Under the pieces are notes generated by a model that saw nothing but the letters and a program-made list of their open reading frames with translations, was not told where the DNA came from and did no database searches. A DNA stretch of 64,000 bases from assembly GCF_004014875.1 (NCBI RefSeq), contig NZ_CP034929.1, forward strand, positions 186,001-250,000, in the 5' to 3' direction. Made by a program: the position numbers and the translations under genes. The DNA comes from Nocardioides yefusunii. GTDB taxonomy: Bacteria > Actinomycetota > Actinomycetes > Propionibacteriales > Nocardioidaceae. Positions 26,810 through 64,000 of this stretch are shown here, piece after piece (the first letter of the stretch is position 1; each line of letters begins with the position of its first letter).

Positions 26810-29023
26810 GTGAGCACCCAGACCCAGACCCAGACCGCCGTCCGTTACGACAAGGACGCCGACGGCATCGTCACCCTCACGATGGACGACCCCAACCAGT
26901 CGGCCAACACCATGAACGAGCTCTACTCCGCCTCGATGAAGGCCGTTGTGGAGCGTCTCGCCGCGGAGATCGAGGCCGACGCCTCCAGCGTCACCGGCGT
27001 CGTCATCACCTCGGCGAAGAAGACCTTCTTCGCCGGTGGCGACCTGAAGAACATGATGAAGGTCGGCAAGGACGACGCCGAGCGCATGTTCGCCCACGTC
27101 GAGAGCATCAAGGCCGTGCTGCGCCAGCTCGAGAAGCTGCCGGTGCCGGTGGTCGCCGCGATCAACGGCGCCGCCCTGGGCGGTGGTCTCGAGATCGCCC
27201 TGGCTGCCAACCACCGCATCGCCGTCGACGCGAGCAACGTCCAGATCGGACTGCCCGAGTCGACCCTCGGCCTGCTGCCCGGTGGCGGCGGCGTCACCCG
27301 CACCGTGCGCATGTTCGGCATCCAGGACGCCCTGATGACGTTCCTGCTGCCCGGCACCCGCTTCAAGGCCTCGGCCGCGAAGGAGAAGGGTCTGGTCGAC
27401 GCCCTCGTCGCCACCCAGGACGAGCTCGTCCCCGCCGCGAAGGCGTGGATCGCCTCGGCCAAGGGCGACGAGAACGCCGGCGTCCAGCCGTGGGACCGTC
27501 CCGGATTCAAGCTGCCCGGCGGGACCCCGGCCCAGCTCAAGGGCTTCCTGCCGGCGTTCCCCTCGATCCTGCGTCAGCAGACCAAGGGCGCCGACTACCC
27601 GGCGCAGAAGGCGATCATGTCGGCCGCCGTCGAGGGAGCCCTGGTCGACTTCGACACCGCCTCGCGCGTGGAGTCGCGCTGGTTCACCAAGCTCGTGACC
27701 GGCCAGAACGCCAAGAACATGATCCAGGCGTTCTTCTTCGACCTCTCCGCCATCAACTCCGGGTCGCTGCGGCCGGACGGCATCGAGAAGTTCAAGCCCA
27801 CCAAGGTCGTCGTCCTCGGCGCCGGCATGATGGGTGCGGGCATCGCCTACGCCTGTGCGAAGTCCGGCTGGGAGGTCGTCCTCAAGGACGTCTCTCTCGA
27901 GAACGCCGAGCGCGGCAAGGCCTACTCGGAGAAGATCAACGCCAAGGCCGTCTCCCGCGGCAAGCTGTCGCAGGAGAAGTCCGACGAGCTGCTGGCCCGG
28001 ATCACCCCGACCGCCGACCCGGCCGCCGCTGCCGGCGCTGACGTCGTGATCGAGGCCGTCTTCGAGGACCCGGAGCTGAAGAAGAAGGTCTTCGCCGAGA
28101 TCGCGCCGCACATCAAGCCCGACGCGGTGCTCTGCTCCAACACCTCGACCCTGCCGATCAGCACGCTGGCCGAGGGCGTCGACCGTCCGGCCGACTTCAT
28201 CGGTCTGCACTTCTTCTCGCCCGTCGACAAGATGCAGCTCGTGGAGATCATCCGGGGCAAGGAGACCACCGACGAGGCGCTGGCCAAGGCCTACGACATC
28301 GTCCTGGGCATGCGGAAGATCCCGATCGTCGTCAACGACGCCCGTGGCTTCTACACCTCGCGCGTCATCGGCGTGCAGATCAACGAGGGTCTCGCGATGC
28401 TCGGCGAGGGCGTCCTGCCGATGACGATCGAGCGTGCCGCCACCTCGGCCGGTTTCCCGGTCGGTCCGCTGCAGATCACCGACGAGCTCAACATGGAGCT
28501 GATGGTCAAGATCCGCAAGCAGACCATCGCCGCCGCCGAGGCCGCCGGTCAGCCGGTGCCGCAGGACGGCTCCTACGCCGTCATCGACGAGATGATCGAG
28601 CGTGGACGTTCCTCGCGCCTCAAGGGCGCGGGCTTCTACAACTACTCCGAGGAAGGCAAGCGCGCCGGCCTCTGGGACGGCATCACGGAGGCGTTCCCGC
28701 CGGCGGAGACCCAGATCCCGTTCGTCGACGTCCAGGAGCGGATGCTGTTCGCCGAGGCTCTGGAGACCGCGAAGACCTTCGAGGAGGGCGTCATCACCTC
28801 GGCGGCCGCGGCCAACATCGGCTCGATCTTCGGTATTGGCTTCCCGGCCCGTCTGGGTGGCGCTGCGCAGTTCATCACCGGCTACGAGGCCGCTGACGGC
28901 TCCGTCGGCATCGACGCGTTCATCGCACGCGCCGACTCCCTCGCCGACACCTACGGCGAGAAGTTCCGCCCGACGCAGTACCTGCGTGACCTGGCGGCGA
29001 AGGGCGAGGGCTTCCCTGCCTGA
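26810..29023 (+). CDS. fadB: Fatty acid oxidation complex subunit alpha (enoyl-CoA hydratase / 3-hydroxyacyl-CoA dehydrogenase)
   Basis: 737 residues. The N-terminal crotonase domain contains AINGAALGGGLEIALA and catalytic Glu in LPESTLGLLPGGGG. The NAD-binding domain starts near 330 with VVVLGAGMMGAGIAYACAKSG, and HFFSPVDKMQLVEII holds the catalytic His of the dehydrogenase; the C-terminal HCDH domains follow. It hydrates enoyl-CoA and oxidises 3-hydroxyacyl-CoA, then hands over to FadA. GTG at 26810 is chosen because AGAGGA precedes it by about 10 bases. Followed by a terminator hairpin at 29082-29117, which also marks the edge of the AT-rich island. Confidence 0.92.
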   Translation: MSTQTQTQTAVRYDKDADGIVTLTMDDPNQSANTMNELYSASMKAVVERLAAEIEADASSVTGVVITSAKKTFFAGGDLKNMMKVGKDDAERMFAHVESIKAVLRQLEKLPVPVVAAINGAALGGGLEIALAANHRIAVDASNVQIGLPESTLGLLPGGGGVTRTVRMFGIQDALMTFLLPGTRFKASAAKEKGLVDALVATQDELVPAAKAWIASAKGDENAGVQPWDRPGFKLPGGTPAQLKGFLPAFPSILRQQTKGADYPAQKAIMSAAVEGALVDFDTASRVESRWFTKLVTGQNAKNMIQAFFFDLSAINSGSLRPDGIEKFKPTKVVVLGAGMMGAGIAYACAKSGWEVVLKDVSLENAERGKAYSEKINAKAVSRGKLSQEKSDELLARITPTADPAAAAGADVVIEAVFEDPELKKKVFAEIAPHIKPDAVLCSNTSTLPISTLAEGVDRPADFIGLHFFSPVDKMQLVEIIRGKETTDEALAKAYDIVLGMRKIPIVVNDARGFYTSRVIGVQINEGLAMLGEGVLPMTIERAATSAGFPVGPLQITDELNMELMVKIRKQTIAAAEAAGQPVPQDGSYAVIDEMIERGRSSRLKGAGFYNYSEEGKRAGLWDGITEAFPPAETQIPFVDVQERMLFAEALETAKTFEEGVITSAAAANIGSIFGIGFPARLGGAAQFITGYEAADGSVGIDAFIARADSLADTYGEKFRPTQYLRDLAAKGEGFPA

Positions 29024-29081
29024 TCCTGATGCAGCCTGACGCGCTGAGCTGACCAGCGCACTGCTTCTGCACGAGCAAGCC

Positions 29082-29117
29082 CGGGCGGGCGGTCCCTTGA
29101 TGGGGGCCGCCCGCCCG
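29082..29117 (+). terminator. Terminator of fadA-fadB
   Basis: An 11-bp perfect stem CGGGCGGGCGG / CCGCCCGCCCG, extended by CCC/GGG, with a short loop, 58 bases after the fadB stop. Base composition drops sharply just after it. Confidence 0.75.
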
Positions 29118-29176
29118 AGCCGTTTCGTAAGGCGAATTTGGGAGAACTGGATCCAAAATTATGAGATCATCTGTAC

Positions 29177-30883
29177 ATGAAGTGGTCTGTTTCGGATTTC
29201 AAGGGAATAGGATTCGGGGAAATCAACCTCGACCCAGGTGTGGCTACGCTACTGACGGGCGTAAATAGCAGTGGCAAGTCCTCACTAATTCAAACACTTC
29301 TATTGGCTGCTCAGAGCATAAACTCTTCGACGGGGATTGTTCTCAATGGTCCCCTTGTGAGACTCGGGCGCGCGAAAGATCTGATTCGCGAGGGCGCGGC
29401 AGGCGAAGAAATGAAAATCGGGATGAATTTTGGTCCCACGGGAATTGAAATCCAGGCGCAAATCACACTCGCTCCCTCGAGCACTGTGGAGGGCATGAAG
29501 GTTACAGAGGTGAGCATCTCGGGTCCTGAGGGCGAGTTCATGGCTTCCGTTGCCAATGCGCGCAGCGCGGATGGAATACTGGCCCTCGAGGCACTATCGA
29601 CGCTAGGTGCCACTTCAGTGTTGCACGTAAAAGCGGTGATCTCAGGGGAGCGGGTCCTTCGGACATATCTTGGAATGAGGGGACTTATACCGGTCGGTCT
29701 TACAAAGATTCAGTCGTCGACTGCCCTGGGGGTCTCTTACTCTCGGGAACTGCGGTCCATAATCCTCGAGGCGTCGAGGAACCCGGGAAGGTGGTACTTC
29801 GACGATGAAGCATGGACTTCCCTGCACTCGATGATGGCGGAAGTCCGGCGCCTCTCCGCGGATTTGCCGCGGCTTTCGAGTGATGAGGATGGGGAGCGTG
29901 GAATTCTCTCGGTTGCGTCAATTCCCGAAACCTTTATTGAAGATTGGTCCAGTCTGCCCGTAGATCGCATGAAGGAAATTCAGGAATCCTTGGGTGCGGC
30001 GAGGGCCCAGGGTGACGCAGTGATTGTTGGAATTGCGCATGGAGGATCAAGGCTGCGCTCGGGAGGGATTCTCGAGAAGAGATTTAGAAAGGAGCGAGAC
30101 TCTGACTGTCTCGCCCTAGCGGAGTTGGCGGGCGAATTAGGCCGGCTTGGGGCTAGGGTCCACTACTTGGGGCCATTGAGAGACGAACCTAGGGTCGTCT
30201 GGAATCACTGGAATGAGGTTCAGCCCAGTCTCCCCGTGGGCGCAAGGGGAGAGTACTCTGCAGCCGTTCTTTCCAAGAATGGTTCGCAGCCCGTCTCGTT
30301 CTGGGACGGCAAAGAGCAGATTCGGTGCGATCTGGCCGGGGCGGTCGACTACTGGATCGCGAGGCTCGGCATGGGTGGAGCGGTGCGACCTGAGGATCGA
30401 CACAAGATGGGGGTCGGGCTTGCGGTCGAGGTCTCTGGAGGGATGCGGGATTTAACCTCAATTGGCGTCGGCGTTAGCCAGGCGCTGCCGCTGATTGTTG
30501 CCTTCCTGTCGATCGAATCGGATGCCGTCTTCGTGGTTGAGCAGCCAGAGCTGCATCTCCATCCCCGAGTCCAAGCCAATTTGGCAGATTTTCTTACGTT
30601 GGCGCGCCCCGATGTGACCGTGGTGATTGAGTCTCATAGCGAGGCTATGGTTAATAGGCTCAGGTTGCGAGTGGCCGAGGGGAAAATTCAACGCGAAAAT
30701 CTGGAAATTGTATTTGTTGAACCCCAAGGGGATGGTTCATCTTCGTCCGAAGTAATCCGAATTAACGAATTTGGAGATCTTGATCGTTGGCCGAAGGGCT
30801 TCATGGCCACTGATATCGGGGACCTAGATGCGATGTTCAGACTCAACCTGAATCGCCTTTCGGAGGCGGCCCAAGATGACTAA
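29177..30883 (+). CDS. AAA ATPase with DUF3696-type C-terminus (candidate defence ATPase)
   Basis: 568 residues. Walker A GVNSSGKSS (28-36) opens an SMC/ABC-like ATPase; a long divergent insert follows; a signature-like stretch SIGVGVSQALPLI lies near 427-439; Walker B VFVVEQPELHLHP is near 451-463; the H-loop VVIESHSEAMVN is near 483-494. The C-terminus, with INEFGDLDRWPKGFM, matches the DUF3696 tail. It lacks a TOPRIM domain, so it is not a GajA/OLD nuclease. Such ATPases commonly sit in two-gene anti-phage systems. One 60-base line of it (30661-30720) is 45% GC by hand count versus 77% for a line of fadB (27121-27180). It overlaps the next gene by 8 bp. Confidence 0.85.
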   Translation: MKWSVSDFKGIGFGEINLDPGVATLLTGVNSSGKSSLIQTLLLAAQSINSSTGIVLNGPLVRLGRAKDLIREGAAGEEMKIGMNFGPTGIEIQAQITLAPSSTVEGMKVTEVSISGPEGEFMASVANARSADGILALEALSTLGATSVLHVKAVISGERVLRTYLGMRGLIPVGLTKIQSSTALGVSYSRELRSIILEASRNPGRWYFDDEAWTSLHSMMAEVRRLSADLPRLSSDEDGERGILSVASIPETFIEDWSSLPVDRMKEIQESLGAARAQGDAVIVGIAHGGSRLRSGGILEKRFRKERDSDCLALAELAGELGRLGARVHYLGPLRDEPRVVWNHWNEVQPSLPVGARGEYSAAVLSKNGSQPVSFWDGKEQIRCDLAGAVDYWIARLGMGGAVRPEDRHKMGVGLAVEVSGGMRDLTSIGVGVSQALPLIVAFLSIESDAVFVVEQPELHLHPRVQANLADFLTLARPDVTVVIESHSEAMVNRLRLRVAEGKIQRENLEIVFVEPQGDGSSSSEVIRINEFGDLDRWPKGFMATDIGDLDAMFRLNLNRLSEAAQDD

Positions 30884-31799
30884 GCTCTGGATAGACCCGG
30901 AAATTGTGGTTCCATCGGAAAGCGGGGTTCGAAGCCCGGAGTTCTGGACCCGCTTCCTTGAGTGGTCGGCGCTCGATGACTATAAAATGACGCCGGATTC
31001 ATTTAAAATTCTGGGCAGCTTTCTGAATAGCGACCCTGCCTTGCCGGGGAGTTTAAAGAACAGTCTCTATGAGTTATATGGCAGGTTTGCGAGTCGCGTG
31101 GCTCACCTGGATCCGTCGGGATGCTCGGGTTGCTTTGAAGGGTACTCCCCCTTGATGGGTAGCCCTAGTAATGGCGACTCGATTAACGGCTTGATGCACG
31201 ATGTGCGTTGCGGTGAATCATTTCTTGGCACTGATTCACGGGTGTGGAAGTCAACTAGTTCGAGTTGCCCCGAATGCGGCCCCTGGGGTGGGCGGCTCGC
31301 TGCGGACAAAAGGGGGCTCCCGGGATTCTGGGCTCATGTTGGGATTGGGCGATTAAGGAGGGATGAATTCCTGGATAGAGCCAAGTTTACGTTTGTAGAT
31401 TTGAAGCAATGCGCCAGTGAGATGTTCCCGCATTGTGTTTTCTCCTCTAGTGCATGGGATGAGACCGGAAAACTTCAGGGGGGGGAGGCAGATCTCGTCC
31501 GCGACCTAGTTGCCTCAATCGGCGTCCTTAATGACTATGCTCCCGAGATCTGGGCAGGCTTCTTGGATACCGAAGAGCGCGAGCGTCGGCTCAGACTTAT
31601 GGGGGTTGAGGCATCCGTAGAAGGAAATAAGACCAAGAAAAAGAGGGGCCTTATGGAGTTGCGGGACTTCAGATTCGACAAGAAGGTAGTGCGTTGCGAG
31701 TGGCATTTGAAGCTGTCTTGGAATGTAAATAGAGTGCATTTTTCCCCGAGTGGCGAAAAGGTATTTATTGGACTAATTACAGACCACTTGCCTGTCTGA
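30876..31799 (+). CDS. Unknown partner protein of the DUF3696-type ATPase
   Basis: 307 residues, start overlapping the ATPase end by 8 bp, so the two are one translational unit. I do not recognise a family. Visible features: paired cysteines CSGC (about 86-89) and CPEC (about 129-132), which with His and Cys between them could form a metal site; a Lys-rich stretch NKTKKKRG (about 250-257); and a C-terminal motif CEWHLKL ... NRVHF ... IGLITDHL. No signal peptide or membrane helices. AT-rich like its partner. An effector nuclease or toxin triggered by the ATPase is a reasonable guess from context only. Its last 23 bp overlap the convergent esterase gene. Confidence 0.7.
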   Translation: MTKLWIDPEIVVPSESGVRSPEFWTRFLEWSALDDYKMTPDSFKILGSFLNSDPALPGSLKNSLYELYGRFASRVAHLDPSGCSGCFEGYSPLMGSPSNGDSINGLMHDVRCGESFLGTDSRVWKSTSSSCPECGPWGGRLAADKRGLPGFWAHVGIGRLRRDEFLDRAKFTFVDLKQCASEMFPHCVFSSSAWDETGKLQGGEADLVRDLVASIGVLNDYAPEIWAGFLDTEERERRLRLMGVEASVEGNKTKKKRGLMELRDFRFDKKVVRCEWHLKLSWNVNRVHFSPSGEKVFIGLITDHLPV

Positions 31800-32868
31800 T
31801 TCGTGGCATTGCCTTCCGTGAGAACGCGAAGCTCCGTTCCATCGCTGGCGCGAAGTCGGCATCGAACGAATGACCTTCGCCGTACCACTCGAGTTCGACG
31901 TCGACGCCCGCCCGGCGCATCGCGTCGTACGTCTCCTCGGCCCACGCCGGCGGGCACACGTCGTCGGTGCGTCCGTGCACGATCAGCACCGGGGCGGTGA
32001 TCCGGTCGAAGAAGGGACGCGTCGAGACACCTTCCCAGAACTCGGGGTCTTCCTCCGGGGTCGCGAGCCGCGACGTGAACGCCTTCGTCCGGGCGTCGGT
32101 CAGACCCACGAACCAGTCCACGTTCTCTGCCTCCAGCGACGAGACCGCCGCCCACATGACACCCACACCGAACGCGTCCGGGGCAATCTGCAGGACCTTC
32201 TGGGCGATGCCACCACCCATCGAACGTCCGAAGACGGCAGCGCGATCGACGTCGAGACCAGCGAGTTGGGAGTCGTCGGAGGTGCGGAGCGCATCTAGTG
32301 CAGCGATCACGTCGACGGCGTATCCGAGTCGGACATCCGCGCCGTGCGTCGGGTCCTCGTCGGAGGCGGCATGGCCCCGATAGTCGGTGTGCAGCGTCGC
32401 CCAGCCGCGTTCGCCGAGCCACTTCCGTTCCCGGGTCATGCCCTGCCCGGTGACGTACTTCGCCGGATCGATGTAGCCGTGGGCGAGCACCGCCACGGGG
32501 AACGGGCCGTCGCCGTCCGGGATCGTGAGGACCCCCGAGATCGTCAACGGGTCGGTGTACGCGCCCGGACCTTCGCTGTGGGCCGAGTAGCTGACGTCGT
32601 ACGTCGTCCATCCGGCGCCGCGCTCGCGGATGGCGCCGATTCTCATGTCGGAGCCGTGGTGGGTCTGGGCGGCGAACCCGGGCACCGACGTCACCTCGAC
32701 GCTCGGTGTCTCCGCAGGTGTGCCGCTGGGGGAGGGGTCACCGGAGCCCGACGGCGGCGCTGGTCGTTGCGTCGGGCCGGACGCGTCGTCGGTGCATCCC
32801 GACGCCAGCGCGAGCAGCGATCCACCCGCGATGCCCCGCAGCAGTGAGCCTCGACTGATTGCTGTCAT
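31777..32868 (-). CDS. Alpha/beta hydrolase lipoprotein (prolyl oligopeptidase-like fold)
   Basis: 363 residues. The N-terminal signal ends in lipobox LALASGC, followed by a Pro/Ser/Gly-rich linker, so it is a membrane-anchored lipoprotein. The hydrolase core shows VAVLAHGYID (oxyanion region), nucleophile elbow GRSMGGG, the acid in HGRTDDVCPP and the His in GEGHSFDA, as in dienelactone hydrolase/S9-type esterases and peptidases. Substrate unknown. ATG at 32868 has GGGTGG upstream; a GTG three codons earlier is possible. Its last codons and stop lie in AT-rich sequence at the edge of the ATPase island, so its C-terminus may have been altered by that insertion. Confidence 0.83.
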   Translation of the reverse strand: MTAISRGSLLRGIAGGSLLALASGCTDDASGPTQRPAPPSGSGDPSPSGTPAETPSVEVTSVPGFAAQTHHGSDMRIGAIRERGAGWTTYDVSYSAHSEGPGAYTDPLTISGVLTIPDGDGPFPVAVLAHGYIDPAKYVTGQGMTRERKWLGERGWATLHTDYRGHAASDEDPTHGADVRLGYAVDVIAALDALRTSDDSQLAGLDVDRAAVFGRSMGGGIAQKVLQIAPDAFGVGVMWAAVSSLEAENVDWFVGLTDARTKAFTSRLATPEEDPEFWEGVSTRPFFDRITAPVLIVHGRTDDVCPPAWAEETYDAMRRAGVDVELEWYGEGHSFDADFAPAMERSFAFSRKAMPRIRQASGL

Positions 32869-32883
32869 GCCGGCCACCCTGCC

Positions 32884-42802: not shown

Positions 42803-44653
42803 ATGAGCGACAAGGGGACTGTCGCCTCCAGCAGCCAGGGCCGCGCCGCCCGCATCGGCAACATGTCCGGCTTCTACGGAGACCGGCTCTCGGCCATGCA
42901 CGAGATGCTCGCCCGCGCCACGTCTGAATCTGAGAGCCTCGACTACCTGACCGGCGACTACCTCGCCGAGCTCACCTTGCTGATCCTGGGCAAGGACACC
43001 TTCAAGGACCCGAACCTCGGCTACGCCCGCACCTTCGTGCGTCAGGCCGAGCAGAGCCTCGGTCTCGCCCTGGAGAAGGGCGTCAAGATCGTCGTCAACG
43101 CCGGTGGCCTCAACCCGACCGGCCTGGTCGAGAAGCTCCGCGAGGTCGCGTCCGGTCTCGGGCTCGCACCGCGGATCGCCACTGTCGTCGGCGACGACCT
43201 GCGCGCCTCGGCCAAGGAACTCGGCTGGGACAACGCTCTCACCGCCAACGCCTACCTGGGCGCCTTCGGCATCACCTCTGCCCTGAGCGCAGGTGCCGAC
43301 GTCGTCGTCACCGGTCGCGTCACCGACGCCTCCCTCGTGGTCGGGCCGGCTGCGCACTTCCACGGCTGGACGCCCGACCAGTACGACGCCCTCGCCGGTG
43401 CGGTCGTGGCCGGACACGTCATCGAGTGCGGCACCCAGGCCACCGGCGGCAACTTCTCCGGTTTCATGTCGCTGCCCGCCGCCGCGCGGGAGCAGAAGAT
43501 GGGCTTTCCGCTCGCCGAGATCGCCGCCGACGGATCCAGCGTGATCACCAAGCACGCCGGCACCGGGGGAGCGGTCACCGTCGACACCGTCACCGCGCAG
43601 CTGGTCTACGAGATCCAGTCCGCGCACTACCTCAACCCCGACGTGACCACGCACCTCGAGTCGATCGCGATCGCGCAGGAGTCCGAGGACCGCGTCGCGA
43701 TCAGCGGCGTCACCGGATCGGCGCCGCCGGAGCAGCTCAAGGTCTGCCTCAACGAGCTCGGTGGGTTCCGCAACAGCATCGAGTTCCTCGTGACCGGCCT
43801 CGACGTCGACGCCAAGGTCGCGTGGGCGAAGGCGCAGCTGGAAGCTGCGTGGGCCGCGTCGGGCAAGCGTCCGGCGAAGGTCCAGTGGGCGCTCACCAGT
43901 GTCCCCGCCGAGGACCCGGCCACGATGGAGGCCGCCTCCTGCGTGCTGCGCTGCTCGGTGCTCGACCCCGACGGCAAGGTCGCCGGCAAGGGCCTCACCG
44001 CCCCGGCGGTCGAGTTCGGGCTCGCGTCCTACCCCGGTTTCACGCTCACGGCGCCGCCGTCGCCGGCCACCCCGTATGGCATCTACCGGCCCGAGTACGT
44101 GGCCCGCACCGCCGTCGAGCACACGGTCGTCCACCACGACGGACGACGTGAGGTCATCGCCGACCCCACCGACCTCGCCACCACCGATGCCCTCGCTGCT
44201 CACCGCACAGCCGGCGTCACCCCTTCCGCGGGACGTCATAAGAATCCGGGGGCAGAGGCCCCGATTCTTATGACGTCCGGGAGCGGAGCGACGGTGAAGA
44301 GGCCGCTCGGCACCTTCGTCCACGCCCGCTCGGGCGACAAGGGTGGCGACGCCAACATCGGCCTCTGGGTCGCGAACACGAGCGACGCTACGTCTGATTC
44401 CGGGCTGCGCAAGGCCCGCGTCGACTGGCTGCTCGACCTCATCACCCCCGACGTCGTGCGTGACCTCGTCCCCGAGGCCGCCGACCTGGACGTGGACGTC
44501 TACGCCCTGCCCAACCTGGGCGCCGTCAACGTCGTCGTCCGTGGCCTTCTCGGAGCCGGTGTGGCCGCCGGCACCCGCACCGACCCCCAGGCCAAGGCCC
44601 TGGGCGAATGGGTCCGTGCCCGCCACGCCGAGATTCCCGAGGAGCTCCTGTGA
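42803..44653 (+). CDS. AtuA-like fusion protein (DUF1446 plus small C-terminal domain) carrying an in-frame palindrome
   Basis: 616 residues. The N-terminal ~460 residues are the acyclic terpene utilisation (AtuA/DUF1446) domain: RIGNMSGFYGDRLSAM at the start, and NAGGLNP, TGRVTDASLV and GHVIECGTQATGGNFSGF inside. A smaller AtuA-like domain (about 499-616, PLGTFVHARSGDKGGDANIGLWV) is encoded by separate genes in some species. Between them, residues 475-497 are translated from dispersed palindrome copy 6 (44225-44293), 23 codons with no stop. The biochemical role of AtuA is not established; it is required for citronellol/geraniol growth in Pseudomonas. The next gene starts in its stop codon (GTGA). 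Confidence 0.83.
   Translation: MSDKGTVASSSQGRAARIGNMSGFYGDRLSAMHEMLARATSESESLDYLTGDYLAELTLLILGKDTFKDPNLGYARTFVRQAEQSLGLALEKGVKIVVNAGGLNPTGLVEKLREVASGLGLAPRIATVVGDDLRASAKELGWDNALTANAYLGAFGITSALSAGADVVVTGRVTDASLVVGPAAHFHGWTPDQYDALAGAVVAGHVIECGTQATGGNFSGFMSLPAAAREQKMGFPLAEIAADGSSVITKHAGTGGAVTVDTVTAQLVYEIQSAHYLNPDVTTHLESIAIAQESEDRVAISGVTGSAPPEQLKVCLNELGGFRNSIEFLVTGLDVDAKVAWAKAQLEAAWAASGKRPAKVQWALTSVPAEDPATMEAASCVLRCSVLDPDGKVAGKGLTAPAVEFGLASYPGFTLTAPPSPATPYGIYRPEYVARTAVEHTVVHHDGRREVIADPTDLATTDALAAHRTAGVTPSAGRHKNPGAEAPILMTSGSGATVKRPLGTFVHARSGDKGGDANIGLWVANTSDATSDSGLRKARVDWLLDLITPDVVRDLVPEAADLDVDVYALPNLGAVNVVVRGLLGAGVAAGTRTDPQAKALGEWVRARHAEIPEELL
44225..44293. repeat. Dispersed palindrome copy 6, in frame inside the AtuA-like gene
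   Basis: Arms GGACGTCATAAGAATC (44231-44246) and GATTCTTATGACGTCC (44263-44278) with an inner GGGG/CCCC stem. Compared with copies 2, 3 and 5 a base pair has changed on both arms (AGG to AAG, CCT to CTT), keeping the pairing. The right flank GAGCGGAGCGACG is shared with copy 2. Codons read S-A-G-R-H-K-N-P-G-A ... M-T-S-G-S-G-A-T. Confidence 0.85.

Positions 44654-59589: not shown

Positions 59590-64000
<4,411 letters not shown>

Follow-up and report, generated by a model that had tools for sequence, protein, structure and literature searches.

Menshen, a phage-defense system of three components (NsnA, NsnB, and NsnC), reportedly stems from the work of Millman et al. 2022. It has been associated with a DUF262 gene and with a nuclease, predicted to be of the OLD type, that has a TOPRIM domain (PMC10952713), and has been counted among the systems of unknown mechanism (PMC12926258). 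The ptuXYZ system has been presented as a three-gene module, with 17 operons shown, that comprises a DUF262 first gene, an ATPase, and a PIN'-YoeB (BECR-fold) partner (PMC11980606, mBio 2025). Judging from these domain lists, ptuXYZ appears to have the three-gene make-up of Menshen NsnABC, an equation that we draw here; the word Menshen is never used in the main text of PMC11980606. We report a gene pair in a stretch of 64,000 nt from Nocardioides yefusunii (GCF_004014875.1, NZ_CP034929.1 positions 186,001-250,000; hereafter the window) that is related to Menshen/ptuXYZ but has two genes; its RelE-like domain is recognizable, and its function is predicted. We give an even chance to the reading that the pair is a horizontally acquired, Menshen-related anti-phage module that works without NsnA by ATPase-controlled, RelE-like cleavage of mRNA.

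A two-gene module with an NsnB-like ATPase

The ATPase gene (29177..30883, + strand, 568 aa) and the partner gene (30876..31799, + strand, 307 aa) are open reading frames (ORFs) on the same strand that overlap by 8 bp, as the first-pass annotation of this DNA had described. That annotation also took the first product for a DUF3696-type AAA ATPase lacking TOPRIM, and the eight Pfam matches of the protein agree: they include AAA_21 (E = 6.6e-17), AAA_15 (E = 2.9e-12), and DUF3696 (E = 3.7e-5, above its cut-off), the last placed at residues 504-542 (30686..30802, + strand), and TOPRIM is absent among them. A Gabija/OLD nuclease was considered as well and set aside, its C-terminal TOPRIM being replaced here by the DUF3696 tail. 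Among PADLOC profiles, NsnB scored highest (E = 5.4e-61, 205 bits), followed by the candidate systems HEC-03B (E = 5.3e-46, 156 bits) and PDC-M55A (E = 1.7e-38, 131 bits); the partner, however, matches no HEC-03 or PDC-M55 component. We class the protein as an NsnB-like ATPase of the DUF3696 ABC/OLD type. Septu (PtuA-PtuB) likewise consists of two genes, an ATPase and a nuclease partner, and is reported to cut tRNA-Tyr (PMC13096335), but the partner in the window has no HNH family (it matches no Pfam family at E ≤ 1), and PtuA profiles fall far below the NsnB score. PIN-domain defense systems of differing make-up have also been reported (PMC13092281).

The pair shares with Menshen the succession of a DUF3696 AAA_15/21 ATPase and a partner, the tight gene coupling, and the C-terminal ~140 residues of the partner, which match NsnC; with ptuXYZ it shares the ATPase and, as modeled, the PIN'-YoeB partner. 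It differs from ptuXYZ in having two genes instead of three with a DUF262 first gene, and from Menshen in having no NsnA (DUF262/GmrSD_N), adjacent or elsewhere in the genome. The NsnA profile PDLC03877 had 0 matches across the N. yefusunii genome (E ≤ 1; the control search was positive in 7 of 14 control genomes), and tblastn with three NsnA proteins (1e-3) returned no match in the window, in the 11 related loci L004-L014 described below, or in L125. For comparison, complete Menshen operons were found in G172 (L082), on an Ensifer plasmid (L083), and in G423 (L126), with one more in G677 (L130) recognized by eye from the stored part. The ATPases of L082, L083, and L126 have 359-367 aa vs. 568 aa in the window, and the extra length, roughly 200 residues, lies between Walker A and Walker B. 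No Pfam match to TOPRIM was seen in the two proteins of the window or in NsnB of L082 and L083, which puts the TOPRIM described for Menshen itself in doubt.

Walker A (29258..29284, + strand, residues 28-36, GVNSSGKSS) is followed at some distance by Walker B (30533..30565, + strand, residues 453-463, VVEQPELHLHP), where Q456 comes after the acidic residue. The place of Q456 is usually that of the catalytic glutamate, as in the OLD/Gabija type, and a change from E to Q there is the classical hydrolysis-slowing change of ABC ATPases. E-Q instead of an acidic pair was present in 120 of 120 DUF3696 ATPases inspected (P0003-P0122, including the window's own) out of the 3458 that passed E 0.001, and the residue at this place is S, N, and N in three Menshen NsnB. 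From the E-Q motif and the hydrolysis-slowing effect of such a change in ABC ATPases, we infer that the ATPase may be an ATP switch.

A predicted RelE-like domain behind a PIN-like head

The first-pass annotation recognized no effector signature in the partner, a statement that finds no support here: by hidden Markov models and fold comparison, the protein has a RelE/YoeB-like domain and the C-terminal family of NsnC. Seven PADLOC profiles matched, all of them NsnC, and PDLC03914 (E = 1.9e-36) extends across residues 167-307 only, leaving the head unmatched. In the model, residues 182-307 (31419..31796, + strand) form a RelE/YoeB/YafQ-like domain with the predicted fold of the RelE/ParE superfamily (BECR), and residues 1-147 (30876..31316, + strand) form a head that appears to have a VapC-type PIN fold with an incomplete active site, residues 121-147 being modeled with low confidence.

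In Escherichia coli RelE, K52, K54, R61, and R81 surround the scissile phosphate, and cleavage is reduced by R61A, R81A, and Y87A, with no significant effect of K52A and K54A (PMC2807027). We aligned seven two-gene partners (window included) with three Menshen NsnC, and ten positions were invariant in all 10 proteins (F184, P185, F189, D220, R263, W276, H277, K279, R286, and H304). The spacing of H277-K279-R286-H304 (2-7-18) is close to that of RelE K52-K54-R61-R81 (2-7-20), and the RNase-type basic residues of RelE thus appear to be matched in the partner, a correspondence drawn from spacing and fold, without superposed coordinates. H304, at the place of R81, presumably resembles H83 of YoeB. 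The fold of residues 182-307 and the R61 and R81 positions are common to the RelE/YoeB/YafQ mRNA interferases and to Cami1, a CRISPR-linked RelE-type effector; both differ from the domain in the window, which is fused behind a PIN-like head, is paired with an ATPase, and has no residue at the Y87 spacing. This last difference weighs against mRNA cleavage by the domain: because the protein stops three residues past H304, only L305, P306, and V307 follow.

Related pairs and a sister branch

An alignment scan of genome contigs yielded at least 78 ATPase loci (L004-L081). In the 11 with the lowest E values (L004-L014, the best 11 of at least 78), a partner ORF lies directly downstream in every case, with its start within ~20 bp of the ATPase stop, so that the pairing noted at first pass is conserved and the two genes are not scattered independently. 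The C-terminus of the partner is RelE-like in five of these loci (L004, L005, L006, L010, and L011) and Rossmann-like in the other six (L007, L008, L009, L012, L013, and L014), which we call the sister type. Four sister-type partners were scanned, with DUF2325 below its cut-off at the C-terminus (E = 0.0023-0.17) and no PADLOC match; Argonaute/PIWI proteins and MID domains lead the VIA rows for this C-terminus, at a level that other Rossmann-like folds equal. When six sister partners (L007, L009, L012, L013, L014, and L125) are aligned over their full length, 30 columns are invariant, and G033 holds an additional sister-type locus. Partner P0002 and ATPase P0109 are probably a further pair; both are listed with a longest contig of the same length, 17547. 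In an uncultured Kocuria assembly (L008:7707-8545), the sister-type partner gene is broken into two ORFs.

A profile built from four sister-type partners matched five of the six RelE-type partners (E values from 1.2e-7, that of the window partner, to 4.7e-11; L011 was missed), so that the heads of both partner types are homologous. A head profile built from seven partners recovered L004, L005, L011, and L013, none of which was used in building it; it had 0 matches in the other 67 loci (E ≤ 10). L008 was missed, as was NsnC of the Menshen locus L082, the latter being a further difference from Menshen.

In a tree of 22 ATPase sequences, the six window-type ATPases form one group (95/95) and six of the seven sister-type ATPases another (95/96, with L008 outside), the two groups being joined at just 80/76, and the three Menshen NsnB cluster together (100/100) on a long branch, apart from the window ATPase, although long branches make the deep joins unsure. 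Given this placement, the two-gene systems look like a separate ATPase lineage with a shared effector family and not simply like Menshen after a recent loss of NsnA. The same evidence bears on whether the pair could be a degenerate, non-functional Menshen remnant. Such a remnant would fit a genome in which NsnA was found neither next to the pair nor elsewhere and a genus in which Menshen is present. However, both ORFs are open and their motifs conserved, the NsnA-less pair is also open in L004, L005, L006, L010, and L011, and the ATPases of these five loci group with that of the window, apart from NsnB; we regard a remnant as very improbable.

The exchange of C-termini invites a different reading of the partner, in which the RelE-like domain is a ribosome/RNA docking or sensing module, the Rossmann-like C-terminus of the sister type is another sensor, and killing falls to the PIN-like head or to some host protein that the ATPase recruits. 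A sensor could vary by lineage while head and ATPase stay, the Y87 spacing allows no residue, and the head has D7 in all 13 partners compared and D109 in 12 of the 13 (the exception being P0002). PIN-domain RNases (VapC) have three to four conserved acidic residues. In the 13 partners, no further conserved acidic column and no second conserved acidic pair was seen in the head, which is therefore probably structural. The PtuZ head has been described as without essential catalytic residues (PMC11980606), and the RelE arginine positions are among the ten invariant ones of the partner; these points speak against the sensor reading, which we consider rather unlikely.

A foreign insert between fadB and an esterase gene

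The two long genes occupy a foreign insert of ~2.7 kb (29121..31821, no strand assigned), recognized by a drop in GC and by comparison with L121 and L122, in which the site is empty. GC is 0.558 in the ATPase ORF and 0.524 in the partner ORF vs. 0.677 in the window, and GC at third codon positions is 0.60 and 0.58, respectively, vs. 0.933 in the fadB ORF. The pair is thus AT-rich in a GC-rich genome, as claimed at first pass on hand counts that prove exact (27/60 GC at 30661-30720 and 46/60 at 27121-27180 in fadB). Besides the island, 1-kb GC falls below 0.6 in the window only at 59-64 kb; that stretch holds rRNA genes (16S at 59591-61107, 23S from 61506 past the window end) and is unrelated to the island.

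The edges of the insert lie within 29026-29176 on the left and 31800-31834 on the right. In G474 and G054, which have the best fadB matches in the genus (82 and 81% identical), the same esterase gene comes next after fadB with no island in between; the fadB and esterase matches are separated by 170 and 116 bp, respectively, vs. ~2.8 kb in the window. In G471 and G190, an ABC-transporter gene (at 33.7 kb in the window) comes ~0.2 kb after fadB with neither island nor esterase between, and in G166 and G228 fadB alone was matched in the fetched stretch. A hairpin 3' of fadB (29079..29120, + strand, 18-nt arms with 6 nt between) is a probable terminator at the left edge. At the other end, the esterase ORF (31777..32877, - strand) terminates within the 3' end of the partner gene, and its tail (31777..31800, - strand) thereby extends into the insert. 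Neither an integrase nor another additional long gene is apparent in the insert (ORFs ≥ 80 aa in the ORF list), and no direct repeat of 14 or more bases flanking it was found.

The NsnC profile PDLC03914 matched two genomes among 245 in the family and six among 396 in the phylum (four of these six weakly), the partner profile (A4) 5 of 391 genomes of the order (including the Menshen genomes G172 and G423, the head-only G033, and the weak G347), and the ATPase at E ≤ 1e-50 2 of 391, all of these counts being lower bounds, in the case of the ATPase because few first-look candidates get scored. Horizontal transfer of a two-gene module, which had been proposed at first pass, is supported by the empty site in G474 and G054 together with this rarity in the order. 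A housekeeping function, in which the ATPase and an RNase partner serve the cell in stress or DNA repair, would suit the neighborhood in the window, where six of the seven scanned neighbors are metabolic or transport genes and none of the seven belongs to a defense family; but the rare and patchy distribution, the foreign composition, and the empty site in sister genomes make it scarcely credible.

Co-occurrence with defense genes elsewhere, which the first-pass annotation had named as a check, is seen in part. Four of 10 loci (L006, L010, L011, and L012) have restriction-modification (RM), HipA, or Fic genes at a distance of up to 6 kb, and the other six have none; the sample covered 16 chosen ORFs at 10 of the 11 two-gene loci without a control set, which makes this evidence weak. 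The Menshen loci L082 and L126 adjoin type I RM genes, the complete operon of L126 (G423:C30:9000-25000) standing beside HsdM and a phage-type integrase. A large relaxase-like ORF was also recognized there by eye. Elsewhere in the window, ARAGORN called one tRNA-like gene whose anticodon is unclear (tRNA-???, 42994-43083, - strand), which may be a false call.

Proposed mechanism

In the mechanism that we favor, the ATPase would dimerize on ATP and, with its natural E-Q Walker B, serve as a slow nucleotide switch and not as a fast motor. The partner would dock on it via the PIN-like head, since this head is common to both partner kinds of the ATPase lineage, and the resting complex would keep the RelE-like C-terminal domain in check. 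Because NsnA is missing, sensing of a phage cue would fall to the ATPase or to the extra stretch of ~200 residues between its Walker motifs. The cue would free the RelE-like domain, which would enter the ribosomal A site and cleave mRNA, with R286 and H304 acting in the roles of R61 and R81 of E. coli RelE. Translation and infection would stop, probably at a cost to the cell.

No separate antitoxin gene was seen in the insert (ORFs ≥ 80 aa), and the pair might itself be a toxin-antitoxin-like addiction module, with a PIN'-RelE toxin and the ATPase as neutralizer, that maintains itself and for which phage defense is secondary. RelE and PIN folds are classic toxins of such modules, the insert is small and mobile, a cassette of two coupled genes, and it holds no other long ORF fit for an antitoxin. 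On the other hand, the nucleotide-binding motifs kept by the ATPase exceed what a neutralizer needs, and the effector family also occurs in a three-gene defense system, so that an addiction module, although it retains an appreciable share of our belief, is unlikely compared with ATPase-controlled mRNA cleavage in defense.

The first-pass guess of a defense module was right as to class, given the relatedness to Menshen, and the function of the pair stays a prediction. The further suggestion of a type not yet described holds in part: the combination of PIN'-YoeB, ATPase, and DUF262 has been published as ptuXYZ (PMC11980606), and no description of the NsnA-less two-gene form or of the swapped C-terminus was found among openly licensed papers.

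Implications

The NsnB and NsnC profiles of PADLOC can fire on a locus other than a complete Menshen operon. If our reading of the pair is right, Menshen-type immunity shrinks to a two-protein core, and two points become testable, namely phage sensing by the ATPase without a DUF262 component and antitoxin-free silencing of a RelE-type RNase. A natural domain-swap experiment would then be at hand in the sister branch, where the same head bears another C-terminus. More tentatively, the window may represent an NsnA-free actinobacterial defense family in which an E-to-Q DUF3696 ATPase lineage controls PIN-headed partners with exchangeable ends: one branch would use a RelE-type mRNA interferase restrained without an antitoxin, and the sister branch a Rossmann-like domain (DUF2325/MID-like) that is unrelated to it. 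If that is true, the ATPase-PIN' core would be a general device for direct sensing and release of plug-in effectors.

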